NCBI GenBank assembly: GCA_021555105.2
Contig: CP134604.1
Location: 124,001 to 188,000 of the forward strand
Source of the DNA: Thalassospiraceae bacterium LMO-JJ14
GTDB taxonomy: Bacteria; Pseudomonadota; Alphaproteobacteria; Rhodospirillales; Casp-alpha2
DNA length: 64,000 nt
Direction of reading: 5' to 3'
Shown here: positions 20,733-44,890 of the stretch, in pieces
How the letters are laid out: each line of letters opens with the position of its first letter
How positions within the stretch are numbered: the first letter of the stretch is position 1
Program-made: the position numbers and the translations under genes
The notes under the pieces: model-generated
What the model was told of the DNA's origin: nothing
The model's input: only the letters and a program-made list of their open reading frames with translations
Database searches by the model: none

Positions 20733-20817
20733 GCGGGTGTGGCGGAATTGGTAGACGCGCCGGATTCAAAATCCGGTTTCTTCGGAAGTGTCGGTTCGAG
20801 TCCGACCACCCGCACCA
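20733..20817 (+). tRNA. tRNA-Leu (anticodon CAA)
   Basis: An 85-nt cloverleaf with encoded CCA. The acceptor GCGGGTG pairs with CACCCGC, the anticodon stem CCGGA/TCCGG encloses the loop TTCAAAA with anticodon CAA, a long variable arm follows, and the T-arm has GGTTCGAGTCC. The kinase gene begins only 21 bp downstream. Confidence 0.96.
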
Positions 20818-20838
20818 CCTCAACCAGGAGAATCCACT

Positions 20839-22173
20839 TTGGCATATGAAGTCGTTGAAAGGATCGGAAATGGAGGATTTGGCGTAGTCGATGAGGTAAA
20901 GGATGACGAAGGTGAATATTGGGCAAAAAAAACGTTAGACGTCGCCCTTCAGCCTCACATTGACCCGGACGAGCTTCGCGCAAGATTCGAGAGAGAAGTA
21001 AGATATCAAAGCGAAGTAGCACATCCAAATGTCGTGAAAATTCATGATTATGACTTAGATGCCGATCCGCCATGGTTCATAATGGAGCTTGCGGAAAACA
21101 GCTTAGCGGATGAGCTTGAAGATGATCACACACTTAGTGGCGATCCAAGACAACCATTGTTTGACATATTGGCAGGTTTACAGGCACTGCATGAGCGTGG
21201 GTTCAAACATCGCGACCTAACTCCCGCAAACGTGCTGAAATTTGTCGAAGAAGATGGTGGCATCAGATATGCAATCTCTGATTTTGGGCTTATTGCGCCT
21301 GAGGCTGGGCAAACGACCACGTTGACTGGCAGTAATATGGGAGGCGGCACCCCGATGTATCGCGCGCCGGAATGCGCGATAAACTTCAAGCGGGCAACCG
21401 CACAGTCAGACATATATTCTGTTGGAGCGATCCTGCATGACATATTTGGCGGGAAACAAACTCGCATACCCCACATTGAACTGACTGTTCCTGGCCCATT
21501 GGGAGAAATTGTACAACATTGTACAAAAACAAATCCACGCAGACGTTATTCAAACGTCGGGGCGTTGCGGGAACGTTTGTATGAAGTTCTCAGCGTTGAA
21601 GAGATTAGTTTTACCTCTGTTGAAGAAGAAGAAATCGTAACGTTGCTCAAAGGGTCCGATCATTTATCCGACGACGAATGGGATCGGGTTTTTAACCAAA
21701 TCGATGAAAACGATGCTGGAAATCAGTCGAACCACGCAATTTTTCGTGTATTGAGTATTACTCATATAGAGCAATTGGCTGACGAGGCACCTGAGTTATT
21801 AGCTTCTCTCGGAGACGATTATGCAAAATATGCACAACTTTCTGGGTTTGATTTCGATTATTGCGATGTGATTGGGACTAGAGCGCGTGCAATCTTCGAA
21901 AGGGCCGAACTCGACCTGCAGGCAAGGATAGCTGTCTCAATGTTTATGCTCGGCACCCGTCACAATAGATGGTTTGTTGAACGCATTTTCTTGCGTATGG
22001 CAGGAAAAGAGATATCTGACACGCTCGCCGAAAGAATAAAGATTGAGCTAGAAGTCCAAAATATCAATTTTTCAAGAGGAATAGAGCACTTAGAATGGTC
22101 TATCTCGGCTTCACGTGAGGATCTTCATTCTATTTTGCAAGACTTCTTAAATGATGCAGAAAATGGAAATTGA
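20839..22173 (+). CDS. Hanks-type Ser/Thr protein kinase
   Basis: A 444-residue soluble protein kinase. The N-terminal kinase domain (about 1-265) shows the Gly-rich loop (GNGGFG), the ATP-anchoring Lys in WAKKTLD, the catalytic loop HRDLTPANVL, DFG and the APE-like RAPE. In HRDLTPAN a Thr replaces the Lys that most Ser/Thr kinases keep, so activity is likely but unusual. Residues of about 270-444 form an unrecognised helical region; there is no transmembrane or PASTA domain. I choose TTG 20839 because AGGAG lies 8 nt upstream and the kinase fold begins right after it. Its end overlaps the PP2C gene by 23 bp, so the two act as a coupled kinase-phosphatase pair. Confidence 0.88.
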   Translation: MAYEVVERIGNGGFGVVDEVKDDEGEYWAKKTLDVALQPHIDPDELRARFEREVRYQSEVAHPNVVKIHDYDLDADPPWFIMELAENSLADELEDDHTLSGDPRQPLFDILAGLQALHERGFKHRDLTPANVLKFVEEDGGIRYAISDFGLIAPEAGQTTTLTGSNMGGGTPMYRAPECAINFKRATAQSDIYSVGAILHDIFGGKQTRIPHIELTVPGPLGEIVQHCTKTNPRRRYSNVGALRERLYEVLSVEEISFTSVEEEEIVTLLKGSDHLSDDEWDRVFNQIDENDAGNQSNHAIFRVLSITHIEQLADEAPELLASLGDDYAKYAQLSGFDFDYCDVIGTRARAIFERAELDLQARIAVSMFMLGTRHNRWFVERIFLRMAGKEISDTLAERIKIELEVQNINFSRGIEHLEWSISASREDLHSILQDFLNDAENGN

Positions 22174-22873
22174 TATTGGTCATTTTTCCTGCCCAGGAAG
22201 AAATGGGGGCAATCAAGATGTCGTATTACCGCCACTATTTGAGGGCGGATACGTTTGGGCGGCGATTGCGGACGGAGTCGGGGGCCATGTCGGCGGAGAA
22301 GTCGCTGCGCGAACCGCAATTGAGACCGTAAAACAAGAAGCCACCCAAGGCTCTAAGGCTAAATTAAAGTCTATAATTAACTCTGCTCATAAAGCGTTAG
22401 TGTCAAAAGCTGAGACTGCCGCCTCATTGACCGAAATGTCGACAACACTCTCCATTGTTCGCGCATCACGCAAGCAGGCAGAAGTTGCTCACATTGGTGA
22501 CTCTAGGATTTATCATCTCCGCGACAATGGCCTCATGACAAGGACTAAAGATCAAACAGAAGTAAATGAACTTATTGAAAACAGAGTTCTCACAAAAAAA
22601 GAAGCGCGAAGATACCCAAGACGTCATGTTCTTCTAAATTCACTATCGGTCAGAGAGCATTCCAACGTTTTTGAAACATCCTTTAGTGTGTGTCCTGGGG
22701 ATAGAATTATTTTGCTTACCGACGGGGTATATGAAGTCCTACTTCGATCCGAGATACGAGACCTATCGTTGAAAAGTGCAACATGTAACGAACTGTGCGC
22801 ACATATAAAGTCTGAAATAGAAGACCGTGGGATCGTTGATGATTATTCTGTTTGTGCATTTTCAATCAACTAA
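22151..22873 (+). CDS. PP2C-family (PPM) Ser/Thr protein phosphatase
   Basis: A 240-residue metal-dependent phosphatase. Motifs in order are GGNQD (metal Asp), ADGVGGHVGGE, VAHIGDSRIYHL, LLTDGVYE and the C-terminal DDYSV, all with the Asp ligands of the two-metal site. It lies inside the 3' end of the kinase gene (start candidates 22151, 22154 and 22163), which shows translational coupling. The natural role is to reverse phosphorylation by the partner kinase. In other bacteria such pairs occur in stress, secretion and phage-defence contexts; nothing here fixes which. Confidence 0.9.
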   Translation: MMQKMEIDIGHFSCPGRNGGNQDVVLPPLFEGGYVWAAIADGVGGHVGGEVAARTAIETVKQEATQGSKAKLKSIINSAHKALVSKAETAASLTEMSTTLSIVRASRKQAEVAHIGDSRIYHLRDNGLMTRTKDQTEVNELIENRVLTKKEARRYPRRHVLLNSLSVREHSNVFETSFSVCPGDRIILLTDGVYEVLLRSEIRDLSLKSATCNELCAHIKSEIEDRGIVDDYSVCAFSIN

Positions 22874-22935
22874 AGTTTTTTCTCCCCCGAGGCTTCTTTC
22901 AAAAAATTCATAGCCACCTCAAACGAGGACAATCC

Positions 22936-23907
22936 TTGAGCCAGAATCCACAGCACGCCGAACCGGAATACGCCGTCGAGATCGAAGGCCTGAGCAAGGT
23001 CTACGAAAGCTCCAACAAGCAGGCGCCGAAGCACGCCTTGAAGGACGTTTCGCTGAAGATTAAGCGCGGCTCGTTCTTCGGCCTTTTGGGGCCGAACGGG
23101 GCCGGTAAATCGACGCTGATCAACATTCTCGCGGGCCTCGTCAACCGCACGTCGGGTAGCGCGAAAATCTGGGGCCACGACATCGAAACCGACATGCGCG
23201 CGGCGCGCCGCTCGATCGGCGTGGTGCCGCAGGAGCTCAACATCGATCCGTTCTTCACGCCCAGGGAGCTGCTCGATCTGCAAGCCGGCCTCTATGGCGT
23301 GCCGGCGGCCGAGCGCCAGACCGACGACGTGCTTGCCGCCGTCGGTCTTTCCGACAAGGCCGACGCCTATACCCGTTCGCTGTCGGGCGGCATGCGGAGA
23401 CGGCTACTTGTCGGCAAGGCGATGGTGCACCGCCCACCGGTTTTGGTCCTCGACGAGCCGTCGGCGGGCGTCGATGTCGATCTGCGCCGCCAGCTCTGGA
23501 CCCATGTCCGCGAAATGAACGAGCAGGGAATCACCGTCCTTTTGACGACCCATTACCTGGAAGAGGCCGAGGCGATGTGCGACGAGATCGCCATCATCAA
23601 CCACGGCCGCATCATCGCCTGCGAGCCGACCGAGACCATGCTGCGCCGGATCGACGCCAAGCAGATGAAGGTCGTGCTCAGCAAGCCGCTGACCAGGATC
23701 CCCGATGCGCTCAAGCCCTACAACCCGACGCTGGGCGAGGCGGATTGCCTGTCGGTCAGCTTTGCGCCGTCGGAGACCCCGGCCCGCAAGGTTCTTCAGG
23801 ACATCGAGGACGCGGGGCTTGTTGTCCGGGATTTCTCGACCACGGATTCCGATCTCGAAGACATCTTCATCCGTCTGACGCACGGTGACGACGATGAAGG
23901 TTGTTGA
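22936..23907 (+). CDS. ABC transporter ATP-binding protein
   Basis: A 323-residue ABC-2-type export ATPase. Walker A is GPNGAGKST, the Q-loop is VPQELN, the signature is LSGGMRR, Walker B is VLVLDEPSAG and the switch His is in TTHYLEEAEAM. The C-terminal domain of about 100 residues is typical of the CcmA/drug-lipid exporter group. No permease gene is adjacent, so its membrane partner must be encoded elsewhere. The frame is open to 22852, but TTG 22936 with GAGGA 8 nt upstream is the likely start. The lipase gene overlaps its 3' end. Confidence 0.85.
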   Translation: MSQNPQHAEPEYAVEIEGLSKVYESSNKQAPKHALKDVSLKIKRGSFFGLLGPNGAGKSTLINILAGLVNRTSGSAKIWGHDIETDMRAARRSIGVVPQELNIDPFFTPRELLDLQAGLYGVPAAERQTDDVLAAVGLSDKADAYTRSLSGGMRRRLLVGKAMVHRPPVLVLDEPSAGVDVDLRRQLWTHVREMNEQGITVLLTTHYLEEAEAMCDEIAIINHGRIIACEPTETMLRRIDAKQMKVVLSKPLTRIPDALKPYNPTLGEADCLSVSFAPSETPARKVLQDIEDAGLVVRDFSTTDSDLEDIFIRLTHGDDDEGC

Positions 23908-30210: not shown

Positions 30211-30287
<77 letters not shown>

Positions 30288-30318: not shown

Positions 30319-31374
30319 TTACTCTCCCAACGAAGTCTTGGGTGTGACCATAGTGTGTCCATAATCGTCCAATACACTTACCGCTCGCCGAAGGTGATCG
30401 GGCGCGAGGTGAGCGTATCGCTGGACCATATCGAGCGATTTGTGCCCCATTAAGTGCATGGCGTCATAGAGAGGGATGCCGTTCTGAACGAGGCGTGATG
30501 CATAGGTATGACGAAGGTCGTGAAAACGGACATCCGGCATACCAGCGTCGTTACGAGCGCGATTGAACGCGCTTTTAATATCCGACAGCCCCCTACCTCG
30601 ATACGTGAACACGCGCCCATGGTCTTGAGGATGAAGGCTCGCCAAAACAGCGAGCGCCGGGCGCGGCAAGGGTATATGTCGATCCTCCCCGTTCTTCGTT
30701 TCGCGGAACGTCACAAGCCCACGCTCCATATCAACATCTCGCCAATCGAGATTGAGTATTTCGCCCTTCCTTCCGCCCGTACTTAGCGCAAATCTGATGA
30801 TGGGAACCAAGTGGGCCGGTGAGCACATGACCAGCCGTTGCTCTTCTTCCTCACTGAGGAAGCGATCTCTCCGATGATCTTTCGGCAATCTGGGGAACCG
30901 AGGCTGAACCTCCAGAAGATCGTTTCGCCAAGCTTTGTTGAGTATCGCGCGAAGGATTGATACCTCGCGCCGTACAGTCGCCGGTGCAACGCGTTGCAAT
31001 CTTTCTTCCATATAGTTCGAGATCACTGAGGGCGTTATATCGCCAGCATTGTATGCCCCAAACCAAGCCGCCAAATCTCGCAAACGATACCGCGCGCTAC
31101 TCATGAATGTTTTAAGGTGGTCTCTTTTTTGCTCTTGCGCGTAGCGGTTTACCGCTTCAATGAAGGGCAAAGGTGGTTTTTTATCAAAGTTCTCGGAGAG
31201 AAATTTCTGACGCGTCAGGTCTGCTAAGAGGGCCTTCGCTTCTTCAAGGTCGGAAGTTCCAGTACTTCTGCGAATTCGCTCGCCTGTCTTCTTGACCCGA
31301 TAGTCAATGTAGAACTTTGACGAATTTGGCCGCTGGTAAAGGCCGTCCGGCAGACGTGACTGTTTTCTTGGCAT
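30319..31374 (-). CDS. Tyrosine recombinase / island integrase
   Basis: A 351-residue site-specific recombinase that catalyses integration and excision at the tRNA-Arg site. It has a SAM-like core-binding domain (about 65-150), and the catalytic residues are all visible: Arg in STGGRKGE, HxxR in HDLRHTYAS, His/Trp position in LMGHKS and the nucleophile Tyr in MVQRYAHLAP. The start has a strong GGGAAGG upstream. Its stop is only 32 bp from the tRNA end, the normal place for an integrase using this attachment site. The first 150 bp overlap the 3' end of the excisionase-like gene in another frame. Confidence 0.95.
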   Translation of the reverse strand: MPRKQSRLPDGLYQRPNSSKFYIDYRVKKTGERIRRSTGTSDLEEAKALLADLTRQKFLSENFDKKPPLPFIEAVNRYAQEQKRDHLKTFMSSARYRLRDLAAWFGAYNAGDITPSVISNYMEERLQRVAPATVRREVSILRAILNKAWRNDLLEVQPRFPRLPKDHRRDRFLSEEEEQRLVMCSPAHLVPIIRFALSTGGRKGEILNLDWRDVDMERGLVTFRETKNGEDRHIPLPRPALAVLASLHPQDHGRVFTYRGRGLSDIKSAFNRARNDAGMPDVRFHDLRHTYASRLVQNGIPLYDAMHLMGHKSLDMVQRYAHLAPDHLRRAVSVLDDYGHTMVTPKTSLGE

Positions 31375-32321: not shown

Positions 32322-32372
32322 TGATACCAAGGTATTGATTTTTGTCAAGTGTTATTGATATGTAGGTATCAA
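32322..32372. promoter_or_regulatory. Pair of operator-like inverted repeats
   Basis: Two 17-bp sites, tgataccaaggtattga at 32322-32338 and tgatatgtaggtatcaa at 32356-32372, match at 12 positions and each is partly palindromic (TGATA...GGTAT). They are 34 bp apart, about three helical turns, between the divergent regulator and HNH genes. Confidence 0.5.
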
Positions 32373-32441
32373 TTATTGAGGCATTCGGATTTCAACCATT
32401 TGGCTTCCGAAAACCCGAACACAGAGTATGGAGCACTTGAT

Positions 32442-33314
32442 ATGAAGAAGTTTTCGTATTGGACCCACGGCGACGGTCATTACTATCGTGTACGCAAAAG
32501 GCCAGCCAGTTTTCAGTATCAACGTTGCAATCGCGCCACCTACCGCCATCGCCAGAGGCCTATACAGCCTCTCAAGATGCCATATTCAGGACCCTTTAAA
32601 AGCGGACCAGAACATCCCCGCTGGGTTAACCGAGACGCGCTCTTGATCGAGCTAAAATCCCGAATTTATGGGTCTTGGGTCGTAATCGGCACTGAGATAG
32701 TAACGGTAGGGCGTTCGCGAAAAGTACTTTGTCGGTGCTACAAAACGGGCCAAGAGCATTTAGTAAATGTCGACAATTTACTAGCCGGCAAAACTAAGGG
32801 GCCACGTGGCGTTAAACATCAGATATCAAAAAACTCAAAGGTTCTTGGGGAGAGATACGACGCAATGATGCAGCGGTGTAAGAACCCTCGCGACCGTAAC
32901 TATCCGAATTATGGCGGCCGGGGAATCGAGGTCCGTTTCGAGTCGCGCCCTGAATTCATCCTTTGGATGGAGGAGAATCTTCCTCATGAAAATTACAGAG
33001 GCGTTGAGATAGATCGCACCGACAACAATGGTCATTACGAGCCAGGAAATTTGAGACTCGTTACTCCACGAGAAAACCTCTGCAACACGCGACGAAATCG
33101 TCACGTTATTTATCGAGGGCAATCTGTCTTACAGACTCATTTTTGGCACGTGGTTAAACATGACATTCCCAATTTCAGTTACAGCAGAGAATGGACGACA
33201 AAGCTACTTGCAATGGATCTGTCGCCAGATGAAGTGATAAGACGTAGTCGAAATTGGCAGACAAAAGTAATTGAGTTTCCTTCCCCTGAGATTGTTAGAA
33301 TTTACAGGGAGTGA
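32442..33314 (+). CDS. HNH homing-type endonuclease
   Basis: A 290-residue protein with a Cys-poor HNH-like nuclease core typical of phage and intron endonucleases: RYDAMMQRCKNPRDRNYPNY, GGRGIEVRFES, then GVEIDRTDNNGHYEPGNLRL and the closing Asn/His region RENLCNTRR. The N-terminal part is basic and probably binds DNA. The frame is open from 32349, but ATG 32442 has GGAG 8 nt upstream. Its 3' end overlaps the antisense polymerase fragment by 20 bp, which suggests that the nuclease gene invaded a DNA polymerase gene. Confidence 0.8.
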   Translation: MKKFSYWTHGDGHYYRVRKRPASFQYQRCNRATYRHRQRPIQPLKMPYSGPFKSGPEHPRWVNRDALLIELKSRIYGSWVVIGTEIVTVGRSRKVLCRCYKTGQEHLVNVDNLLAGKTKGPRGVKHQISKNSKVLGERYDAMMQRCKNPRDRNYPNYGGRGIEVRFESRPEFILWMEENLPHENYRGVEIDRTDNNGHYEPGNLRLVTPRENLCNTRRNRHVIYRGQSVLQTHFWHVVKHDIPNFSYSREWTTKLLAMDLSPDEVIRRSRNWQTKVIEFPSPEIVRIYRE

Positions 33315-33858
33315 TGGCTTTGGCCCGGAACCTGAGCAGCTTCACAAAGTCCTTGAACGTGGCTGTTCGTCTGGCGTCTCCAGACAGGTTGCGGAGCCAC
33401 TGGCCGATCCCCTCGAAGCGGTTGGCCTCTTCTGGATGCTCAAGAACAATGCGCTCGTCGTTCTTGTAGGATGCCAGTTGTTCTTCGGTCATACCAATGG
33501 TCGCTGCTGCCGTCGCAATGTGGATGTCACCACCGCGTCGGTAGATGTCGATCATCGTGGTTTCGTTGGCCATCCATGCAGCGATACGAAGCTCTGCCTG
33601 AGACAAGTCGGCCCCGACCATGACGAACCCGGGCGACGGAATGAATGAGGACTGGTATTGTTTCGCCCATCTGTTCCGCTTAGGGAAGTTTTGGCCGTTG
33701 GGGTCCATGCTGGCCGTACGGCCGGTGACGGCTACGTGCAGCATGTAGGACGGGTGGATGTAGCCGTTTCGGTCCGTGTAGTTGTCGTAGAAGCCCCGCA
33801 GATAAACTATCGTTCGTCCACTCAAACTCGTATTGGTCGTTTGAAACCTTGCGTACAA
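33295..33858 (-). pseudogene. Fragment of a phage-type family A DNA polymerase
   Basis: About 187 codons that match the centre of Pol I-type polymerases: VAVTGRTASMDPNGQNFPK, then motif A VGADLSQAELRIAAWMAN with the metal-binding Asp, and DIHIATAAATIGM. The reading frame ends at RFRAKAI followed by unrelated residues, exactly where motif B (RxxAKxxNFG) should continue, and no remaining 3' part is found. Upstream, the matching reading continues in another frame (33680-33883 holds KVSNDQYEFEWTND), so the fragment is also frameshifted. It is dead as a polymerase and marks a phage origin for this part of the island. Confidence 0.75.
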
Positions 33859-34163: not shown

Positions 34164-34829
34164 ATGGGGCTTTTTGGGAAAATTTTTGGGGGTGACAAGA
34201 AGCCTTCCTCTGACCTCCCGCCAGAGGTCAGAAAGATATTCGACAAGATGGCGCGGGTTATGGAGGACGAAAAACTTCAAAACTCGATGTATCCAGACCA
34301 GATAAAAAGTCAGATTGAAAATGGTCAAGATACCGATGAAATTTCATATGCCGTTGGCGAATTCGGCCGTACTGAAGACAATCCTATCCCAGTTAATGGT
34401 CCCATCGGGGAGCTGGTTTATCTTTCTTGCCTAAAAACAAAAAGTAACGCGCGGTTACTATTCCATCGACTCGGTTCAATGGACGGGATCGATTTTTATG
34501 AGACCGTGACCATCGACGGCCGAGACTGGGATGTCCTTTTCTTTTCTATGTATCATCCACGCAAATCCAAAAAGGCTCCATCTGGCTACGTTTTAACGAG
34601 CACAAATGAGCAACCATTGCTGTTTGGGACAAACCGGCGTGTCGAAAATTTTCCGTACAGTCTGCAACAAGCCATCCGAAGTACTACATCAGAGATATTT
34701 GGTTTTCCATTGCCGCCGCCCCAGGTTCGACAAGCCGAAGAAAGCGTGAAATTTCAGAGGCCCAAGGACCACCTTCAGCGAGTTAAAAGCCTCGTCGCCC
34801 AGTCCCAAGGTTACAGGAGAGACTCATGA
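34164..34829 (+). CDS. First gene of the Hsp70 operon, unknown function
   Basis: A 221-residue soluble protein I cannot name. After a basic Gly-rich start (MGLFGKIFGGDKK) and a charged helix, residues of about 60-140 form a compact alpha/beta domain with conserved-looking motifs NPIPVNGPIGELVYL, LLFHRLGS, YETVTIDGRDWDVLFF and MYHPRKSKKAPSGY. No catalytic motif is recognised. It overlaps the GrpE-like gene by 4 bp (ATGA). Its constant place beside the chaperone genes here suggests a client-recognition or effector part; this is inference. Confidence 0.65.
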   Translation: MGLFGKIFGGDKKPSSDLPPEVRKIFDKMARVMEDEKLQNSMYPDQIKSQIENGQDTDEISYAVGEFGRTEDNPIPVNGPIGELVYLSCLKTKSNARLLFHRLGSMDGIDFYETVTIDGRDWDVLFFSMYHPRKSKKAPSGYVLTSTNEQPLLFGTNRRVENFPYSLQQAIRSTTSEIFGFPLPPPQVRQAEESVKFQRPKDHLQRVKSLVAQSQGYRRDS

Positions 34830-35206
34830 GCGAAGAGCCATCCAATGAGCCGACGACGGAAGCGTTAACGCAGTCACTGTTGGACATATCGGTAGAGTCT
34901 TGGCGATTTGGTAAGTTGTTTGATCGTCTTCTGGGAAAACTAGATGCTGGAGAACAGAGCCGGTACCGAGGCCAATTCAGATGGTTCCAAAAGAAAGTAG
35001 AAGAGTCACTGGTCTCGGCGCAGCTTCGAGTGGTCAATGTTGAGGGACAACAATACGACACCGGCATGGCAGCGACTCCCTTGAATATTGACGAGTTTGA
35101 CCCGAATGACATCCTCGTTGTCGATCAAATGCTCGAACCCATCCTTATGGGACCAAATGGGATTATTAAGACTGGAACCGTTACGCTCAGGAAGAAGCAG
35201 CTATGA
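34826..35206 (+). CDS. GrpE-like nucleotide-exchange protein (short)
   Basis: A 126-residue protein, shorter than normal GrpE (about 190). A helical N-terminal half (QSLLDISVESWRFGKLFDRL, RYRGQFRWFQKKVEESL) is followed by a C-terminal part (EGQQYDTGMAATPLNIDEFD, VDQMLEPILMGPNGIIKTGT) that recalls the beta-domain of GrpE, which opens the Hsp70 nucleotide cleft. The similarity is weak by eye. The ATGA overlaps on both sides (with the upstream gene and with the Hsp70 gene) show strict translational coupling to Hsp70, which supports this role. Confidence 0.55.
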   Translation: MSEEPSNEPTTEALTQSLLDISVESWRFGKLFDRLLGKLDAGEQSRYRGQFRWFQKKVEESLVSAQLRVVNVEGQQYDTGMAATPLNIDEFDPNDILVVDQMLEPILMGPNGIIKTGTVTLRKKQL

Positions 35207-37698
35207 GTCATTTCGTTGGTATTGACCTCGGCACAACAAACAGCGCCATTTCATCGTTTGACGGTGAAGAAGTTCGAATTTGGAAGAGTCCCGAGCAAAA
35301 CGATGTAACTCCCTCGGTGATCTACATTGATCGAAGGGGTAATAAGTACGTTGGAAAGCGAGCCTACGACTCTGCGCCAAACAGTCCTGACAACGCCGCC
35401 AGTCTTTTTAAACGGCTTATGGGAACTAGCACTCCCATTCAACTATCAGCAGTGAACGAGACAAAAACGCCTGAAGAATGCTCAGCAGAAGTTTTGAGAG
35501 TGCTTTTTGGATACCTACCCGAAGAAATCCGCAATTCCGATGAAACCGGAACCGTTATCACAGTGCCTGCGGCGTTCAACCAAATGCAAAAGGATGCAAC
35601 GATGCAGGCTGCCGAATTGGCCGGCATCGGCAAGGTTGCACTCATGCAGGAGCCGGTTGCCGCAGTTATGAGCGTCATGCGCGGACGAAAAACGGACGGC
35701 ATTTTTCTAATCTACGATCTTGGCGGTGGCACTCTAGACATAGCAATTGCAGAAAGTTTGGGTGGGCGAGTAAATCTACTCGCGCACGGCGGCATTGCAA
35801 TGTGTGGCGGTCGTGACTGGGATCGCACACTCGTCGATAACATTATTAAGCCATGGCTTTTCGAGAACTTTGATTTACCAGAGGATCTCGCAAGCAATGC
35901 CGATTACAAAGCCCTAATGCGTTTGGCCGCTTGGTCTACAGAACGAGCAAAAATTGAACTTTCTGCCCGAGAAGATGCGGTAATTAGCCTTTCCGAAACA
36001 GAAGCGCGGGTTCGCGATAAATCAGGTGCTGAGGTTTACCTCGATATTCCAATTGATCGAGATACGCTGGACCGCCTGATTGAAGAACGCATCAACGACA
36101 CAATTGAGTCTGCACGTGACACTTTGACGAAGGCCGGATTGACGGCAAGCGATGTCGAGCGCGTTGTCTTCGTGGGGGGACCAACAAATTATAAACCGCT
36201 GCGCGACAAGGTCTCTTTCGAATTAGGGATTCCTGGCAGTTCGGAAGTCAATCCAATGACAGCCGTATCTGAAGGTGCGGCATTATTTGCGGAATCAATT
36301 GACTGGAGTTCCCAAAGCCGTGGAAGGAAAAGCAACCGAGGCAAATTGTCTTCGAGCGGCCAACTCGACGTAAGCTTTAACTACATTGCACGAACGCCTG
36401 ACTCACGGGCGAAGATTGCAACTCAAGTGAATGGAGAAGTGCTTGAAGGTGCTGAGTTTCAGATTGATAGCTTGGATACAGGTTGGACCTCGGGTCGTCT
36501 ACCCTTGACGAATGGCGCGACTATCGATGTGACACTTGGCAAGAATGGCGACAACGCTTTTAAGGTGTTTGTATTTGATGCCTCTGGTGGTCCGCTCTCC
36601 CTTGAGCAAGATAAGATCGTCATTACGCGAACGGCAGCCACAGTCGATGCAATTCCGGCTTCATATTCGATAGGAATAGAAGTCTTGGACAAACTCGGCG
36701 GACGGCCAACGCTAGAATGGTTGGTAAGGGCGGGCGACCAACTCCCTAAAAAGGGAAATCGTGTTTTTAAGACAAGCGAGTCCATTAAGGCAGGAAGCTC
36801 AAGCGCTATTAACTTCAAACTTTGGGAAGGCGAAATTGACGACCCGGTAACGGATAATCGCTTTGTCGGAATGCTCAGGGTTTCAGGCTCTGACTTTGAC
36901 GATGGTGTCATACCTGCAGGCGCTGATCTGAACTGTGATTATGAAGTCTTAGACTCTGGCAACATCGTCTTAGAAGTATCCGTCCCTAGCATTGGCGGAA
37001 CTTTTCATTCAGGCCACAACTTCTATTCTCGAGTTGATGGCCAACTCGACTACTCAAATGTGGCGGCAAGGGTGGCGGAAGACTCAAGCCATACAATGGG
37101 CCGCCTTGATGAAATTAGCGATGTAGTTGACGACCCTAAATTAGAACAAGCACGAAAAAAATTGTCTCGTGCGTCTGACGTCGATCTAGAACAGCCCGAC
37201 ACAGAGCAGGCTCAAGAAGCGATGGAGAGCGTTCTTGAAGCGAAAAAATTGCTCGCTCAGGTTCGCAAGGATCACCTTAAGGAAATTCGACAGCTCGACC
37301 TCGACCAAGTGAAAAGCTTCTTTGACAATCATATCCGGGAGCATGCCCGCCCCAGCGAAGAAACTGCTTTCGACAACCTTGTTCGCACGGCGCAGCGTGA
37401 GATTGACAGAAACGGTAGAGGCTTTGAGAGCCACCTTGACGAATTGCAGACCAAAAATTTTGAAATTCTATGGCGGCAAGATTGGTTTGTTGTGGAGAAA
37501 TTCAAGCACATGGTTCAATCGCCATTCAATTTCTCAGACAAGCAAAGATTTGAAGAGTTGGCATCTCAAGGTCTGGAGCACCTCCGATCAGACGATATAG
37601 ATGCGCTCCGTCAAGTGGTCGCCTTAATGGGAATGATGCAGATTGGTTCCACGTCCGAGACGGATATGTTGGATATCGTCAATATTGTTAGGGGCTAA
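35203..37698 (+). CDS. Hsp70-family chaperone with extra domains
   Basis: An 831-residue Hsp70, larger than DnaK (about 640). The N-terminal nucleotide-binding domain (about 1-370) has the phosphate loops GIDLGTTNSA and YDLGGGTLDIA (about 172-182), VPAAFN, and the adenosine motif VFVGGPTNYKPLRD (about 322). Between it and a recognisable substrate-binding beta domain (about 485-600, with KLGGRPTLEWLVRAG and LRVSG) lies an extra stretch of about 100 residues, rich in beta strands. The C-terminal 220 residues are a charged helical extension, well beyond the normal lid. It is coupled to the GrpE-like gene and followed after 3 bp by the AAA+ gene. ATP-driven client binding is expected; the client is unknown. 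Confidence 0.88.
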   Translation: MSHFVGIDLGTTNSAISSFDGEEVRIWKSPEQNDVTPSVIYIDRRGNKYVGKRAYDSAPNSPDNAASLFKRLMGTSTPIQLSAVNETKTPEECSAEVLRVLFGYLPEEIRNSDETGTVITVPAAFNQMQKDATMQAAELAGIGKVALMQEPVAAVMSVMRGRKTDGIFLIYDLGGGTLDIAIAESLGGRVNLLAHGGIAMCGGRDWDRTLVDNIIKPWLFENFDLPEDLASNADYKALMRLAAWSTERAKIELSAREDAVISLSETEARVRDKSGAEVYLDIPIDRDTLDRLIEERINDTIESARDTLTKAGLTASDVERVVFVGGPTNYKPLRDKVSFELGIPGSSEVNPMTAVSEGAALFAESIDWSSQSRGRKSNRGKLSSSGQLDVSFNYIARTPDSRAKIATQVNGEVLEGAEFQIDSLDTGWTSGRLPLTNGATIDVTLGKNGDNAFKVFVFDASGGPLSLEQDKIVITRTAATVDAIPASYSIGIEVLDKLGGRPTLEWLVRAGDQLPKKGNRVFKTSESIKAGSSSAINFKLWEGEIDDPVTDNRFVGMLRVSGSDFDDGVIPAGADLNCDYEVLDSGNIVLEVSVPSIGGTFHSGHNFYSRVDGQLDYSNVAARVAEDSSHTMGRLDEISDVVDDPKLEQARKKLSRASDVDLEQPDTEQAQEAMESVLEAKKLLAQVRKDHLKEIRQLDLDQVKSFFDNHIREHARPSEETAFDNLVRTAQREIDRNGRGFESHLDELQTKNFEILWRQDWFVVEKFKHMVQSPFNFSDKQRFEELASQGLEHLRSDDIDALRQVVALMGMMQIGSTSETDMLDIVNIVRG

Positions 37699-37701
37699 TC
37701 A

Positions 37702-39168
37702 ATGCCGGGCGACAGATGGCTTCCAATAAATTACGAAACCTCTGAGGGTATAGTATTCCGTAAGCTCGTCAGCTTTGGCGATCATTGGCAAATATATGAT
37801 TCAGGACGCGGCGCCCGCGTTCTCGTCTGCGAAAAAATGATAGGCGAACGATGGATTTCAGAGGGCTTCCTGGATGAATCAGCGCTAACCAGCTTTTCCT
37901 TTGGGCAGAATAATTTTTTCGCAATCGAGTCGGGCCAGAATCAGCAACTGGCGGCTGTGACTGAGTTCATAACTCCCGAGACTAAAGCAGATGCCGCCGC
38001 CTTTGCCGTCAGCTTGCGTCACACTCGTCAAATTGATCATGAAGTCTCATTGCATGACGCAATATTCGTCGAACGCTTTTCCCGGTTACTTCCAACCTGG
38101 ACAGTTTCAGAAAAGATTAGTGATGATCACGTTCTGGGACGTTGGCTAACAGGTGGCGTATCAGTATCAACTTCCTCGTTTCGCCGGATTTCCAATCTTC
38201 TTGGATGGCTGAAAAAAGACGAAGTTCTAGATGTTATTGCATTGGGCGGCCTCCCTTTGCCGGATGGTGGTGTTCGCACCGAGGGCAACACTAGATCGAA
38301 AGAAGCGCAACAAAATAAGGACGCTGAAACCAGAAAATCTAAAACAGACAGTGCAACGATTCTGAAAGAACCTTCTAGCAATAGTCCATCGGAGTTCAAG
38401 CTCAGTGGCCGACCATTCCTTGAAGATTTTTTCAACGAACATGTCGTAGATATCATTCTCCACGAGGACCGTTATCGAGCTCTAGGCGTGGACTTTCCCT
38501 CGGCAGTCGTTTTGCATGGTCCGCCAGGGTGCGGAAAAACATTCGCTGTTGATCGTCTCGTCGAATATTTGGATTGGCCTGTTTATCATGTGGACTCTAA
38601 CAGTGTAGGCAGCCCTTATATTCACGAGACCAGTCGCAAAGTTGCAGAAATCTTTGAAACAGCGATAGAGAACGCTCCAGCGGTCATAGTTATTGACGAG
38701 ATGGAATCTTTTCTGTCTGACCGCCAATTACATCAGTCCACTGGCTTGCATCACGTTGAGGAAGTAGCGGAATTCCTGCGCCGAATTCCAGAGGCCATTT
38801 CTCGCCGAGTATTAATCATCGGCATGACGAATAGACTGGAAATGATTGATCCCGCGATTCTCCGAAGAGGACGTTTCGATCATGTAATTGAAGTCGGCAT
38901 GCCTACCAGATCTGAAGTTGCCGATTTGGTCTCTTCCTTGCTCGAAAAAATGCCTGTCGCAGGGGAAGTTTCTGTCGAGAAGGCAATCTCAGCACTTACC
39001 GGGCGCCCCCTATCAGACGTTGCATTCTCAATTCGTGAGGCTGGGCGCTTAGCTGCAAGATCGGGTAAGGACAAGTTGAGCCAAGACGCCTTAGACCAGG
39101 CGATTGCCAGACTTCCGAATGTCTCTGACGAAGAGAAAAGCCGCCCCATAGGGTTTATCTGGGATTGA
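37702..39168 (+). CDS. AAA+ ATPase of the Hsp70 operon
   Basis: A 488-residue protein. The N-terminal region of about 190 residues has no recognised fold, then a low-complexity linker (about 190-235), then a single AAA+ domain with Walker A GPPGCGKT (about 273), Walker B VIVIDEME (about 328), sensor 1 GMTNR and the Arg finger region RRGRFD. This places it near the classical AAA clade (Cdc48/FtsH/SpoVK), without a protease domain. Such enzymes remodel or unfold proteins as hexamers. Its direct coupling to Hsp70 suggests a disaggregase-like pair similar in idea to DnaK-ClpB, but built on a different ATPase. Confidence 0.85.
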   Translation: MPGDRWLPINYETSEGIVFRKLVSFGDHWQIYDSGRGARVLVCEKMIGERWISEGFLDESALTSFSFGQNNFFAIESGQNQQLAAVTEFITPETKADAAAFAVSLRHTRQIDHEVSLHDAIFVERFSRLLPTWTVSEKISDDHVLGRWLTGGVSVSTSSFRRISNLLGWLKKDEVLDVIALGGLPLPDGGVRTEGNTRSKEAQQNKDAETRKSKTDSATILKEPSSNSPSEFKLSGRPFLEDFFNEHVVDIILHEDRYRALGVDFPSAVVLHGPPGCGKTFAVDRLVEYLDWPVYHVDSNSVGSPYIHETSRKVAEIFETAIENAPAVIVIDEMESFLSDRQLHQSTGLHHVEEVAEFLRRIPEAISRRVLIIGMTNRLEMIDPAILRRGRFDHVIEVGMPTRSEVADLVSSLLEKMPVAGEVSVEKAISALTGRPLSDVAFSIREAGRLAARSGKDKLSQDALDQAIARLPNVSDEEKSRPIGFIWD

Positions 39169-39169
39169 T

Positions 39170-40822
39170 ATGGAACTTTTTGAAAATCCATTTTGGCTAC
39201 TCGGCGCATCATCGCGAGATGATCGGCGGAAGATAATGGAGCTAGCAGAGGAAAAAAGCTTACTCGCAGATGATGACTCGATTTCAAATGCAAGCGGCGC
39301 TCTGACAAATCCACGCAAAAGATTGGAAGTTGAGACAGCCTGGCTTCCTGGACTAGCTCCGAAACGAGCGAGCGAAGTTATCGATCAACTAAAAACCAAT
39401 CCAAGGGATATCTTGGAACAGAAGAATGTTCCAGGCTTAGCGAGGGCAAACCTTTTAGCCACTGGCCTAAAGCACGTGACTGGGAATCTGAATGAAGCAG
39501 AACTATGTGAATGGATTATCGAAATCGCCGACGTTTTCGACGACGTTGATACCGAAGAAATAATTACCATCATCAACGAGGACAGGGGCATAGCTGGTTT
39601 TCCAATTGTTTCCGATCACCATGCGCTGGAACTCGAAATTGATAACCGTAGGCAGTTTATTCGTTCCTCTATTAGAGCGGCACTCAACGAACTTCCGCCA
39701 ATGAGTCTGGTGAAAGTGATCACAGACGCAGTGGAGAAAACTACCGATGTCGGTGAACGACCTGCACCTCTTCTAATTGATGAAATCGTCGACATGTACG
39801 AGGTTGAGGCGCAAGATTTTCTTGATAAGGAAGAAGCCAATATCGATGCGCTCTTGGAGCGTATCCGCGATATTGCAGATAAGAAAAAGTCGGACAAAAT
39901 CCTCTCGCCGATAATCGATGAACTGATTTCTGTTGTCCAAAATTGGGATGTTGTTGCCCAGCCAATTCAAGTCAGCACAAAAAGCCGAGGGTTAGGACAC
40001 GAAGCAAGTGCTCGCGTCGCTCACAATGTTCGGGACTTAGCCGTATATCTGTTTAACGAGCACGACAAATTAGAGATTTCTCAGAAGATTGCGGCAATGC
40101 TTCGTGAAGTTTTTGCAGAAGTCGTATCCGTTGCAGACAAGACTGACGAGGATATAGGTGCGCTCGACGATATCGCCGAGCAAAGAAAGCTAAGTGGGCA
40201 CCTAGAACCGATAACAGAGCTTTGCTCACAAGCGTTAGAGAGGATTGAATCCCACCCATCATCTGCACATGGCGAGGCCCAAAAAATCACGAGGGTCGCG
40301 CAACGTCTTATAGCCGGGCTGGAGTCAGCAAAGTTACCGCAGAACCTAGTCGAACAAGGCAAAGATGAAATTGCGTTGACTTTGATGCAGTGCGCGATCG
40401 CATACGCAAACGAAACGAGCAAATGGAACGAATGTGTCGAAATGCTCGAAGACGCTATGAAATATGCCTCTAGCGCTGAGGCGCGAAAACATATTCGAGG
40501 GAACTTGCTGACTGCCAACCAAAACAAGGCAATGTATGGAAATTTATCTCCGATCTCTTCTGCTCCGACTCTATGGACGCTAAATGGTTTCGGATTCACT
40601 CTATACGGCAGCACAGATGTTGACCCTGTTAGCCGGTCACATATCGCTACATATTATTTCACCGCCCTGTTCATTCCAATTTTTCCAATATCTCGTTACC
40701 GGGTAATACAGGATGGGAATAACTACAGATTCCTCGGCAAAGCGCCACTTAGGCAATTTGACAAGATTCACTTATTAATTTCGGTGGTTGCAATCGTAGC
40801 TGTCTTTATTGGCGCACAATGA
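39170..40822 (+). CDS. J-domain-like, membrane-anchored protein
   Basis: A 550-residue protein with an N-terminal stretch (NPFWLLGASSRDDRRKIMEL, then SNASGALTNPRKRLEVE) that resembles a degenerate J domain: the helix pattern is present but the HPD tripeptide that stimulates Hsp70 is absent. A long helical middle follows. Near the C-terminus is a distinct domain (GFGFTLYGSTD, YYFTALFIPIFPISRYRV, YRFLGKAPLR), then a final transmembrane helix (HLLISVVAIVAVFIGA), so it would sit on the inner membrane facing the cytoplasm. It starts 1 bp after the AAA+ stop. It is the likely adaptor that recruits the chaperone to the membrane. Confidence 0.65.
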   Translation: MELFENPFWLLGASSRDDRRKIMELAEEKSLLADDDSISNASGALTNPRKRLEVETAWLPGLAPKRASEVIDQLKTNPRDILEQKNVPGLARANLLATGLKHVTGNLNEAELCEWIIEIADVFDDVDTEEIITIINEDRGIAGFPIVSDHHALELEIDNRRQFIRSSIRAALNELPPMSLVKVITDAVEKTTDVGERPAPLLIDEIVDMYEVEAQDFLDKEEANIDALLERIRDIADKKKSDKILSPIIDELISVVQNWDVVAQPIQVSTKSRGLGHEASARVAHNVRDLAVYLFNEHDKLEISQKIAAMLREVFAEVVSVADKTDEDIGALDDIAEQRKLSGHLEPITELCSQALERIESHPSSAHGEAQKITRVAQRLIAGLESAKLPQNLVEQGKDEIALTLMQCAIAYANETSKWNECVEMLEDAMKYASSAEARKHIRGNLLTANQNKAMYGNLSPISSAPTLWTLNGFGFTLYGSTDVDPVSRSHIATYYFTALFIPIFPISRYRVIQDGNNYRFLGKAPLRQFDKIHLLISVVAIVAVFIGAQ

Positions 40823-40857
40823 GATGTGTGGATTCTAAGGATAGGACTAGGATTTGA

Positions 40858-42933
40858 ATGGGTGACGAGAACGAAAAAAAGGGGTTCGGAGCTCTCTCAT
40901 CACTAACGTCTAAAGTTGGTGATCCACCTGCTGCGCCTGAGCACGAGAAAACACCCAATAACCAAGACAATCAAACTTCTAACAAGACTTCAAAACAAGG
41001 AGAGGAAAAGCGTAGCAGCGCACCACCCCCCTCTTCACCTCCTCCCAATCCTCCTCCTCCGCCATCTCCACCACCGCCATCGTCGCCGAAACCAACCAAC
41101 CAGGGCAGCTCTTCAAATCTCAAATGGTTTCTGGGGCTCATAGGCGTTGTTATCGCCATAGCAATTTATAACTCTCAAGAAAGCAAAAAGCCTTCTGCGC
41201 CGACATATACTTCCTCTCCCAGCAAAAGCATCGACACTGGATCAAGCAATAGGATACTAAGTCCGCCAACAACTACACCGAAGAAATCTCCGCTATCATA
41301 CCCTCAGCCTAATGAGATCACTTATGAACGGCCTCCAATTGGGAGGAATAACGTTCTCTCTGTCGCCCAAATTCGATGGTGTGTACGTGCAGGAATCCAA
41401 ATAGAGGCGAAAAGACCGCTTATAAGTAGCGATGCTCAGTCACGGTCCTTTAATGAGAGCGTTGACGACTATAACTCAAGGTGTGGAAGCTACAGGTACA
41501 GAAGAAGCAATCTTGAGTTGGCAACGCAGCAGGTCAATAAGCAGCGTTCTCAAATCGAGAGGGATGCAAGACAAGAGTTGTCGTCCATACCAAAACAAAA
41601 TTTATTTTCGCCAGATATAAATCAGCCAAGAATTCAGCCAGCGCCTGCCCCTCTGACAGAGTCCAAACCAAGCCCATCTAAAGGAACTGTCCGTGAGGTT
41701 CAAAAACTACTCAAGGAATTAGGGTACGATCCAGGCCCAATTGACGGGCAGATGGGGCCCAAGACCAGGACAGCTATAAAATCTTTTCAGCGCGAGGCGC
41801 TTTTACCTCCCGACGCAGAGATTGATCAGGACTTTTTGCGGGCTCTTAGAGATGCTCATTCGGAAAGGCAAAAATTCAAAAGCCAGCAAGAAAGTCGAAC
41901 CGGCACCAAAAAATTTACAGTATCGGAGAAGCAATTCTTGACCATTTTTCAAGATCAAAATGGTGAGATGAAGCTCTTTGACTCGACCCGCGTCCCATTT
42001 AATACGGAAAACTCCTGCTACGGCTGGCGCATGCGAATCAACGGCATTAGCGGAAGCATCAAGATGCGTGAAATATTGAGGTTGCCGTCAAAACCACTGG
42101 GCGGATGGCCTGTTATCACTGACGGCTCAAAAAAGGTCACGCCGTCCTCTGATGGAAAAAGCGCCGTTACAGATATGATGCTCGAAATAAAGGATGACAT
42201 GGTGAGCCATGTCTGGTGCATAGCGGAAGGTGATCCGATTGGCGACTACTCGATTGATGTATTTTTAGATGACGTTTTTGTTGAGACCTTCGACTTTGAA
42301 GTGGTTAAGGCGTCACAACAGGCACCTAGTAAAACTCAAGCAGAAGCGGGGAACAGCCCATCTAGCAAACAGGTTTACATCCCAGAGAACGCTAGTGTGG
42401 ATTACACGGGGAAGGGTTGGACATGCGATAGAGGTTATAGGCCTGACGGTGATAGGTGTGTCAAATTCGTCGTCCCAGCACATGCCAGCGTAGATTATAC
42501 AGGCCGGGATTGGACTTGTGATAGAGGTTATAACCAGCAAGGCAATCAGTGCGTCAAATTTGTTGTGCCTGATCACGCCAGCGTAGATTACACAGGCCGA
42601 GATTGGACTTGTGATAGAGGTTATAACCAGCAAGGTGACAGATGTATCAAATTCGCAGTGCCTGCAAATGCTAGCATTGATTATACAGGTCGGGATTGGA
42701 CTTGTGACAGAGGCTACAAGCAGCAAGGCAACCGATGCATCAAATTCGCAGTGCCTGCAAATGCTAGAATTGATTATACAGGTCGGGATTGGACTTGTGA
42801 CAGAGGCTACAAGCAGCAAGGCGAAAATTGCATTAAGTTTGCCGTTCCTAAAAATGCTAGCGTCGATTACACAGGACGCAATTGGGTCTGTAATTCCGGT
42901 TTTATGGAAGTGGGAGACCAATGCGTTAGATAG
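40858..42933 (+). CDS. Single-pass envelope protein with peptidoglycan-binding domain and Cys repeats
   Basis: A 691-residue protein. A cytosolic N-terminal region of about 85 residues is very Pro-rich (about 55-80), then one transmembrane helix (about 89-104), a periplasmic domain with IRWCVRAGIQIEAKR and DYNSRCGSYRYRR (about 165-230), a PG_binding_1 domain (VREVQKLLKELGYDPGPIDG, about 275-335), an unrecognised domain of about 120 residues, and six 31-residue repeats at the C-terminus (509-691), each with two Cys. It would tie the inner membrane to the cell wall. It is last in the operon after a 35-bp gap and no clear terminator follows. Confidence 0.8.
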   Translation: MGDENEKKGFGALSSLTSKVGDPPAAPEHEKTPNNQDNQTSNKTSKQGEEKRSSAPPPSSPPPNPPPPPSPPPPSSPKPTNQGSSSNLKWFLGLIGVVIAIAIYNSQESKKPSAPTYTSSPSKSIDTGSSNRILSPPTTTPKKSPLSYPQPNEITYERPPIGRNNVLSVAQIRWCVRAGIQIEAKRPLISSDAQSRSFNESVDDYNSRCGSYRYRRSNLELATQQVNKQRSQIERDARQELSSIPKQNLFSPDINQPRIQPAPAPLTESKPSPSKGTVREVQKLLKELGYDPGPIDGQMGPKTRTAIKSFQREALLPPDAEIDQDFLRALRDAHSERQKFKSQQESRTGTKKFTVSEKQFLTIFQDQNGEMKLFDSTRVPFNTENSCYGWRMRINGISGSIKMREILRLPSKPLGGWPVITDGSKKVTPSSDGKSAVTDMMLEIKDDMVSHVWCIAEGDPIGDYSIDVFLDDVFVETFDFEVVKASQQAPSKTQAEAGNSPSSKQVYIPENASVDYTGKGWTCDRGYRPDGDRCVKFVVPAHASVDYTGRDWTCDRGYNQQGNQCVKFVVPDHASVDYTGRDWTCDRGYNQQGDRCIKFAVPANASIDYTGRDWTCDRGYKQQGNRCIKFAVPANARIDYTGRDWTCDRGYKQQGENCIKFAVPKNASVDYTGRNWVCNSGFMEVGDQCVR
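42382..42930 (+). repeat. Six tandem 93-bp repeats (31-residue Cys repeats)
   Basis: Units begin at residues 509, 540, 571, 602, 633 and 664 with the pattern P-x-N/H-A-S-V/I-D-Y-T-G-x-x-W-x-C-x-x-G-Y-x-x-x-G-x-x-C. Neighbouring units four and five are almost identical at the DNA level, which points to recent duplication. Confidence 0.92.
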
Positions 42934-43126: not shown

Positions 43127-43858
43127 CTATTTCGCGAGTAGATTGGCTTTTTGAGCTTTAAATTCTTCCTCGGTGATCAAACCTTTTTCAAGCAGGGTCG
43201 CTAGTTTCTCAATCTCGTCAGCAATCGATTTTCCTGAAACATTTTGCAATTTGGGCATTTGACTCTCGTCATTTTCGGAAAGTCTTTTGAGGATAGTAGA
43301 TAGTCGGGAATGCCACGCAGCAGCCTCCTCTATAGCTTGTTTGTAAATGATACTTTCCTTTTCAACCCCCTTGGTAGAGTCCGAAAAATCCAACATAACT
43401 ATATCAAAATTTGGTTTCTGGAAATCATCCGTCACGATACGCAAAGTTATTTTTTTAGCGCGATTGCTCGTAGTCGACGAACCGCTAAGGCCTCCGATAA
43501 CGGCTCCAACTCCACCTAATAAAACTCCTCCAACAGCCGCACCCACAATCTGGCTGCCTCTGTTCGTGCTAGAGATTGATACACCATCTTCTAATACCTC
43601 AGTCGCTATTAAGCTCCTGAAAGGAAATACTGATTGATGACCATGGTCCGAAAAAAGAATTTGATTATTTGTTTTGTCTATCGCCAATCCTTTTTGATTA
43701 TATGGGCTCACATAATGTACGTCTGATTGGAAACCGTCTCGCTTAACAATTGCTTGTCCTGCTGCTTTCGCTTTGCTGGACTTTTCGAGACCCACCAAAA
43801 CAGGAATGAAAATTGCTGCTACTATTCCAAGACCCACTAGCCAAAATATTGCTTCCAT
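43127..43858 (-). CDS. Membrane-anchored SHOCT-domain protein
   Basis: A 243-residue protein. An N-terminal transmembrane helix (IFWLVGLGIVAAIFIPVLV) is followed by a domain with SDVHYVSPYNQKGLAID, a Gly-rich hydrophobic stretch (VGAAVGGVLLGGVGAVIGG) that may insert in membranes, and the short C-terminal SHOCT motif (EIEKLATLLEKGLITEEEF). SHOCT domains are small oligomerisation or localisation modules. It is convergent with the chaperone operon and belongs to the island cargo; function unknown. Confidence 0.72.
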   Translation of the reverse strand: MEAIFWLVGLGIVAAIFIPVLVGLEKSSKAKAAGQAIVKRDGFQSDVHYVSPYNQKGLAIDKTNNQILFSDHGHQSVFPFRSLIATEVLEDGVSISSTNRGSQIVGAAVGGVLLGGVGAVIGGLSGSSTTSNRAKKITLRIVTDDFQKPNFDIVMLDFSDSTKGVEKESIIYKQAIEEAAAWHSRLSTILKRLSENDESQMPKLQNVSGKSIADEIEKLATLLEKGLITEEEFKAQKANLLAK

Positions 43859-44845: not shown

Positions 44846-44890
44846 CTCCGAAGGCAGAGGTCACAGGTTCGAATCCTGTCGGGTGCGCCA
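44846..44890 (+). repeat. attR-type copy of the 45-bp direct repeat (tRNA-Arg remnant)
   Basis: Identical to 30243-30287 from ctccgaagg to gcgcca. The acceptor 5' half and D-arm are missing, so it is not a tRNA gene. The 340 bp between the M15-like gene and the TauE gene hold only this site and, just right of it, iterated AGCCA(A)TT-type short repeats up to 44945. Confidence 0.95.

Follow-up and report, generated by a model that had tools for sequence, protein, structure and literature searches.

What does an Hsp70 do when it travels on mobile DNA together with partner proteins of its own, in a genome that encodes a canonical DnaK and GrpE elsewhere? The question is raised by the window, a stretch of 64,000 nucleotides from Thalassospiraceae bacterium LMO-JJ14 (contig CP134604.1, positions 124,001 to 188,000), in which six genes on the + strand at 34164-42933 follow one another with spacings of -4, -4, 3, 1 and 35 bp and with all six reading frames intact. 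This co-directional arrangement of overlaps and short gaps, proposed from the letters alone (the sequence-only reading), agrees with the list of open reading frames. The operon is a conserved, mobile, single-strand unit encoding an Hsp70, a GrpE-like protein, a J-like protein without the HPD tripeptide, an AAA ATPase and a single-pass envelope protein. We infer, at about an even chance, that it is a horizontally spread, undescribed chaperone system lying under the inner membrane and most likely directed against phages or mobile elements. The genes, numbered along the window, are the following (aa, amino acids; AF2, AlphaFold2; pLDDT, predicted local distance difference test).

34164..34829, + strand: g1, 221 aa, conserved family without assigned function, optional (20/62 loci)
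34826..35206, + strand: g2, 126 aa, GrpE-like putative nucleotide exchange factor (hhalign)
35203..37698, + strand: g3, dedicated Hsp70, 831 aa (Pfam HSP70, E 4.4e-55, residues 5-364)
37702..39168, + strand: g4, classical AAA ATPase, 488 aa (Pfam AAA, E 6.3e-28)
39170..40822, + strand: g5, J-like protein and putative scaffold, 550 aa (AF2 pLDDT 92)
40858..42933, + strand: g6, single-pass membrane protein, 691 aa

Recurrence and spread of the gene set

A profile of the C-terminal half of the Hsp70 was scanned against 84,980 genomes and gave 111 relatives, of which the best 80 were retained; profile hidden Markov models were made for the six genes, and locus counts cover the 62 loci with a flank long enough for the operon. 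Results showed that g3 (62 loci) is accompanied by g2 (59), g5 (59), g4 (56) and g6 (52), and that g1 is present in 20. The 62 loci keep the core together, with 234 of 259 spacings between neighbouring core genes at 60 bp or less, so chance does not account for the arrangement. What had been put forward as a six-part set holds as a linked core, but g1 is an optional member of it. The commonest order was g2-g3-g4-g6-g5(-g1) and the second commonest g2-g3-g4-g5-g6, while the order of the window (g1-g2-g3-g4-g5-g6) was found in one further locus only (L099).

The sequence-only reading had pointed to recurrence in unrelated bacteria as a check, and the gene set is indeed found together in such hosts, on mobile elements. 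The hosts are mostly Pseudomonadota, with the 62 linked loci distributed over several phyla, and the carriers are Tn7-like elements (next to TnsE), plasmids, tRNA islands and chromosomes. In a tree, the partner of the window is a gammaproteobacterial metagenome bin, and rows from Chromatiaceae and Desulfococcus lie close by; the phyla are mixed, which fits horizontal spread, some of the rows being metagenome bins. A tblastn search with the J-like protein found relatives with the same neighbours on plasmids from Shewanella, Aeromonas, Polaromonas, Vibrio and Sinorhizobium. A deep side branch, made of three genes (J-like, GrpE-like and Hsp70), is represented by Sinorhizobium and a viral contig, and annotation suggests that an Aminobacter plasmid and a Pseudomonas plasmid carry the three-gene version too. 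Closer to the window, none of the 7 other genomes in the genus has g3; within the family, 2 of 48 genomes have it, the window's included. A housekeeping cluster was rejected, given the separate canonical DnaK and GrpE of the genome and the absence from the 7 congeners.

Seven IMG/VR contigs carry the Hsp70 with adjoining core genes, and no relatives were found in 50,697 phage records. PHROG gave no structural or lytic phage match for the system-specific proteins, g6 matching PHROG endolysins via its generic peptidoglycan-binding part only. A structural or lytic phage origin of the operon was rejected on these PHROG matches and the phage-record search.

Clustering of the flanking genes revealed no conserved effector gene beyond the six, the largest cluster being found in only 10 loci. 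One subgroup alone (L007:14312-17465, L008, L046 and related loci) carries an accessory run after g1, composed of proteins of 162, 349 and 217 aa without assigned function, the second of which contains a g6-like part, and of an RDD membrane protein. The genes of the set are usually annotated as 'Hsp70 family protein', 'ATP-binding protein' or 'hypothetical protein'. We also observed, in the closest relative (L022:15482-21208), a 1,909-aa sacsin/NO VEIN-like protein encoded directly downstream of the operon, and, in Mesosutterella (L086, L096), several g2-g3 copies in one genome, where the J-like genes lie on the other strand.

Composition of the encoded proteins

Pfam recognised Hsp70 in g3, AAA in g4, and PG_binding_1 together with five EGF-like Cys-repeat stretches in g6; Pfam and NCBIfam contained no family for g1, g2 or g5. 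The Hsp70 has the following parts after its nucleotide-binding domain (SBD, substrate-binding domain).

36340..36633, + strand: g3 inserted beta domain, residues ~380-477 (alignment to the genome's own DnaK; predicted strands)
36634..37041, + strand: g3 SBD-beta, substrate-binding, residues 478-613 (Foldseek to the DnaK SBD, E 1.8e-8; VIA)
37048..37671, + strand: g3 long helical, lid-like C-terminal region, residues ~616-823 (AF2 model)

Alignment of g3 with the genome's own DnaK showed that the nucleotide-binding domain and the ATP-site motifs are conserved, and in the aligned homologues a basic stretch and a ~100-aa beta insert take the place of the hydrophobic linker of the DnaK type. Residues 369-831, modelled with AF2 (pLDDT 83), match the peptide-binding domain of DnaK and continue in a long helical region, and VIA superposed the g3 SBD on that of DnaK with Z ~12 over ~110 residues at 2.2-2.4 Å. 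Alignment and model together show g3 to be a complete Hsp70, in which the nucleotide-binding domain is joined by a peptide-binding domain and, towards the C-terminus, a long helical region. It scores 202-209 bits against cut-offs of 648-823 for the canonical DnaK models of NCBIfam and does not qualify as an equivalog. Its putative partner is the GrpE-like g2, which hhalign aligned with GrpE in a colinear, full-length manner over 108 columns covering helix and beta wing (P 1.7e-4, probability 49%), versus probabilities of 0.1-0.2% for unrelated profiles; neither Pfam nor NCBIfam gave a GrpE match for g2. A sequence search of solved structures with g5, g2 and the C-terminal half of the Hsp70 returned no credible match.

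The J-like protein has a layout in its AF2 model of four short N-terminal helices, a helical solenoid, a small beta domain and a transmembrane (TM) helix.

39170..39355, + strand: g5 degenerate J-like domain without HPD, residues 1-62 (AF2, profile, homologues)
39359..40537, + strand: g5 helical solenoid, residues 64-456 (AF2, Foldseek, VIA)
40754..40813, + strand: g5 C-terminal TM helix, residues 529-548 (TM prediction, AF2)

Residues 1-62 match real J domains colinearly and weakly (P 0.0023, probability 12%), with a shortened loop, and the HPD tripeptide was found in 0 of 75 g5 homologues. Foldseek and VIA found generic helical repeats, with no J-domain entry among the matches listed. The C-terminus is of the window type in 12 homologues, the window included, and of another conserved type in 53. 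As both HPD and the usual Hsp70 linker are lost, the sequences suggest that the J-like protein and the Hsp70 changed their coupling jointly. A degenerate J-like protein that regulates its Hsp70 partner at a membrane is known in Pam16 (PMC3806816); in that mitochondrial import motor Pam16 has a canonical J partner, Pam18, and it is a precedent by analogy for the HPD-less g5.

The last protein, g6, would place its domains on both sides of the inner membrane.

40882..40920, + strand: g6 N-terminal motif, presumably cytosolic, residues 9-21 (family consensus GFAGLSSLVSDVD, 44/67 homologues)
41110..41166, + strand: g6 TM helix, residues 85-103 (TM prediction)
41332..41568, + strand: g6 two-cysteine domain (RWC ... 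YNSRC), presumably periplasmic, residues 159-237
41686..41847, + strand: g6 PG_binding_1, variable addition, residues 277-330 (E 1.1e-14; 24/60 homologues)
42370..42930, + strand: g6 Cys-rich EGF-like repeats, variable addition, residues ~505-691 (10/67 homologues)

A TM segment was predicted in 52 of 72 g6 homologues. YNxRC is kept in 62 of 67, C175 is invariant and C209 is conserved in more than 90%. The sequence-only reading had described g6 as a single-pass protein with peptidoglycan-binding and Cys-repeat domains, and all of these are present in the window; across the family, however, both domains are variable, and from the homologues they are best taken as exchangeable tips and not as core. 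Its further proposal, a machine fixed to membrane and cell wall, agrees for the membrane with the single TM segments predicted in g5 (residues 530-548) and g6, but wall anchoring is not general. Moreover, three loci (L011, L017, L086) encode a fusion of the J-like protein with the g6 periplasmic motif, which is an argument that the J-like protein and g6 act together.

In g4, the AAA domain occupies residues 269-399 and is preceded by an N-terminal region of ~240 aa without assigned identity. No recognised relatives of g1 were found in Pfam and PHROG.

Defence neighbourhood, proposed mechanism and competing explanations

We scanned with PADLOC 245 flanking proteins and 124 control proteins, the control being random genome stretches of the window's own class and not other mobile islands. 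Strong matches in the flanks were HmaB/C, ZacA/B, GajB, AbiEii, HEC-09, SoFic, defence reverse transcriptases, BilB/BilD, an HKD+Snf2 protein, a type II methylase and others, while the control proteins gave only housekeeping look-alikes (RtcR, SspA, DndA-like proteins, helicases). A conservative count, judged by hand, gave 15 defence proteins in 245 in the flanks versus 0 in 124 in this control, which is not matched for islands (Fisher p ~0.003). For example, the Polaromonas operon has Zorya genes on one side and BREX-2 genes on the other, and E. coli HeN100, the sole match among 5,426 E. coli genomes, carries it in a tRNA-Phe island that also contains a RADAR rdrB gene and a remnant of dptF. 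The operon recurs on mobile elements with known defence genes nearby, which is the pattern that the sequence-only reading had expected of a system, the excess being one over random genome regions.

How the six proteins would work can be proposed in steps, given here from the best to the least supported of those that we rank. A complex of Hsp70, J-like protein and AAA ATPase would be located beneath the inner membrane, and the conserved N-terminal motif of g6 would be its anchor. The two-cysteine periplasmic domain of g6, sometimes accompanied by the peptidoglycan-binding or Cys-repeat additions, might report the state of the envelope, for example the entry of a phage or plasmid. The Hsp70 could then bind a foreign or exposed polypeptide, being reset by the GrpE-like protein and scaffolded or gated by the J-like protein, which would not stimulate it via HPD. 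Finally, the AAA ATPase, where present, may dismantle the captured protein or complex. A more specific version, which we hold as tentative although worth entertaining, is a new class of immunity in which a membrane-tethered Hsp70 captures the proteins of an entering phage or plasmid and the AAA ATPase disassembles them, with no nuclease or toxin involved.

Several points weigh against a defence function. Mobile islands are in general rich in defence genes, and part of the defence excess may reflect shared mobile DNA, the control not being island-matched; many loci have no known defence gene close by. In the six genes no nuclease, toxin or pore domain was recognised, so the effector step is not visible. 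PADLOC is without a model for the system-specific genes: none matched g1 or g2, and the match of g5 was marginal, at chance level. The Poribacteria and Sinorhizobium-type branches lack the AAA gene, so it cannot be essential to every version.

The strongest competing explanation, which we judge rather unlikely, is a mobile module for tolerance of envelope or protein stress, in which the Hsp70 and AAA ATPase repair or remove damaged inner-membrane or periplasmic-precursor proteins and carriers gain fitness under stress. Every recognisable part is indeed a part of proteostasis, with no effector domain found, the machine is membrane-tethered with domains facing the envelope, and a DnaK-type system takes part in the control of pili and polysaccharide in cyanobacteria (PMC9239167). 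Such a module would share its purpose, though not its genes, with the transmissible locus of stress tolerance: the operon has no ClpK, small heat shock protein or FtsH-type protease genes, on which ground membership in that locus was rejected. Its neighbours, however, are defence genes more than stress genes, and its distribution is sparse, patchy and on mobile elements, with absence from the 7 congeners.

Less probable still, and by a clear step, is a cassette that serves its own plasmid, transposon or island and not the host, by entry exclusion, transfer or remodelling of replication proteins. The operon is consistently on mobile DNA, including Tn7-like elements beside TnsE, and host DnaK, DnaJ and GrpE act in the replication of the P1 plasmid and of lambda (work cited in PMC12169576). 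But the carriers are mechanistically unrelated (Tn7-like elements, differing plasmids, tRNA islands, chromosomes), so that no single element function fits, and the membrane and periplasmic parts are left unexplained. An ordinary duplicate or decaying chaperone cluster without special role is very improbable: Hsp70 paralogues are common in bacteria (PMC11019930), but the frames are intact, the ATP-site motifs conserved, the partners dedicated and the order kept in 62 loci; this multi-gene linkage contradicts it, and the canonical DnaK and GrpE already in the genome speak against it.

Returning to a defence system beneath the inner membrane, the closest idea in print is an Hsp70/GrpE/DnaJ theme described for the GAP1-N2 GTPase conflict systems (Kaur et al. 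2020, PMC7159879). These are predicted systems that have a dedicated Hsp70 and GrpE together with a J domain fused to FNIII, or TPR repeats. Those systems are centred on a GTPase and found mainly in actinobacteria and firmicutes, whereas the operon here is mostly in Pseudomonadota and combines a classical AAA ATPase, a single-pass envelope protein and a J-like domain without HPD. Membership was rejected, the six genes encoding no GAP1-N2/TRAFAC GTPase domain. Hsp70-like units of nucleotide-binding and substrate-binding domains are also found in the defence loci of CoCoNuT type IV restriction, either fused with McrB/McrC GTPase and coiled-coil nuclease genes or encoded alongside them, and are predicted to hydrolyse ATP poorly and to bind RNA (PMC11090510). 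In bNACHT25, phage sensing goes via the DnaJ-DnaK cycle, with host DnaJ mediating (PMC12169576); there a host chaperone works with a NACHT protein, whereas here a mobile cassette brings the chaperone itself and encodes no NACHT protein. The six genes contain no McrB-type GTPase and no McrC/CnuC, which excludes CoCoNuT membership.

Zorya includes a peptidoglycan-binding part. It is an inner-membrane defence machine (PMC11890865) built on ZorA (MotA-like) and ZorB (OmpA-like), while the engine here would instead be the Hsp70/AAA pair; PADLOC and Pfam gave no ZorA/ZorB match in the operon, and membership was rejected. IetAS has a classical AAA ATPase in common with g4, the likeness being one of the AAA fold only: g4 matched the IetA model with E 5e-27 and 82.7 bits, below the cut-off of 510, and the operon encodes no subtilisin-type IetS or other peptidase, so IetAS was rejected as well. 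The claim that no named system has this set is borne out by the profile libraries and open-access literature searched; a Tn7-cargo survey does not mention chaperones, and neither does the main text of the DefensePredictor paper. As far as these libraries, which are incomplete, reach, the set is undescribed. The novelty is the system itself and not its folds, which are known.

Whatever its function, the operon is an unnamed mobile Hsp70/AAA machine with 62 linked loci in several phyla. If it acts in defence, it would be, as far as we know, the first system based on a self-contained Hsp70 cycle and would connect the proteostasis machinery with envelope surveillance in bacteria. It would also open to test how an Hsp70 works with an HPD-less J-like partner and with its linker replaced by an inserted domain.

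The tRNA-Arg island and its surroundings

The operon is the principal cargo of an island integrated in a tRNA-Arg gene, delimited as follows.

30211..30287, + strand: tRNA-Arg (CCG), integration site, whose 3' 45 bp (30243-30287) are attL
30319..31374, - strand: tyrosine integrase of the island (Pfam Phage_integrase, E 1.3e-28)
44846..44890, + strand: attR, perfect 45-bp direct repeat of the tRNA-Arg 3' end

The perfect repeat, the integrase and a guanine-plus-cytosine (GC) content of 48.0% inside versus 61.2% outside confirm the tRNA-integrated island of the sequence-only reading, with a size of 14.6 kb. In three congeners (G289, G290, G293) the flanks of the same tRNA-Arg site are ~5-16 kb apart, with the operon not between them; other inserts occupy the site, which is an insertion hotspot. 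A promoter scan gave no more matches than chance predicts.

Between the integrase and the operon we noticed a truncated phage-type family A DNA polymerase (33295-33858, - strand; PHROG 17, E 3e-33) with an adjoining gene for an HNH endonuclease (32349-33314); as remnants, the two suggest that the island has a phage past. On the other side, adjoining the operon, a SHOCT-domain protein (43127-43858, - strand) resembles phage-borne proteins without assigned function. A second tRNA-associated patch of low GC (~45%) lies at 20733-23907, directly after a tRNA-Leu. Its genes encode a Ser/Thr kinase-like protein (20788-22173), then a protein whose start resembles a PP2C phosphatase (22151-22873), then the product of 22852-23907, and the patch looks like a small accessory kinase/phosphatase module.

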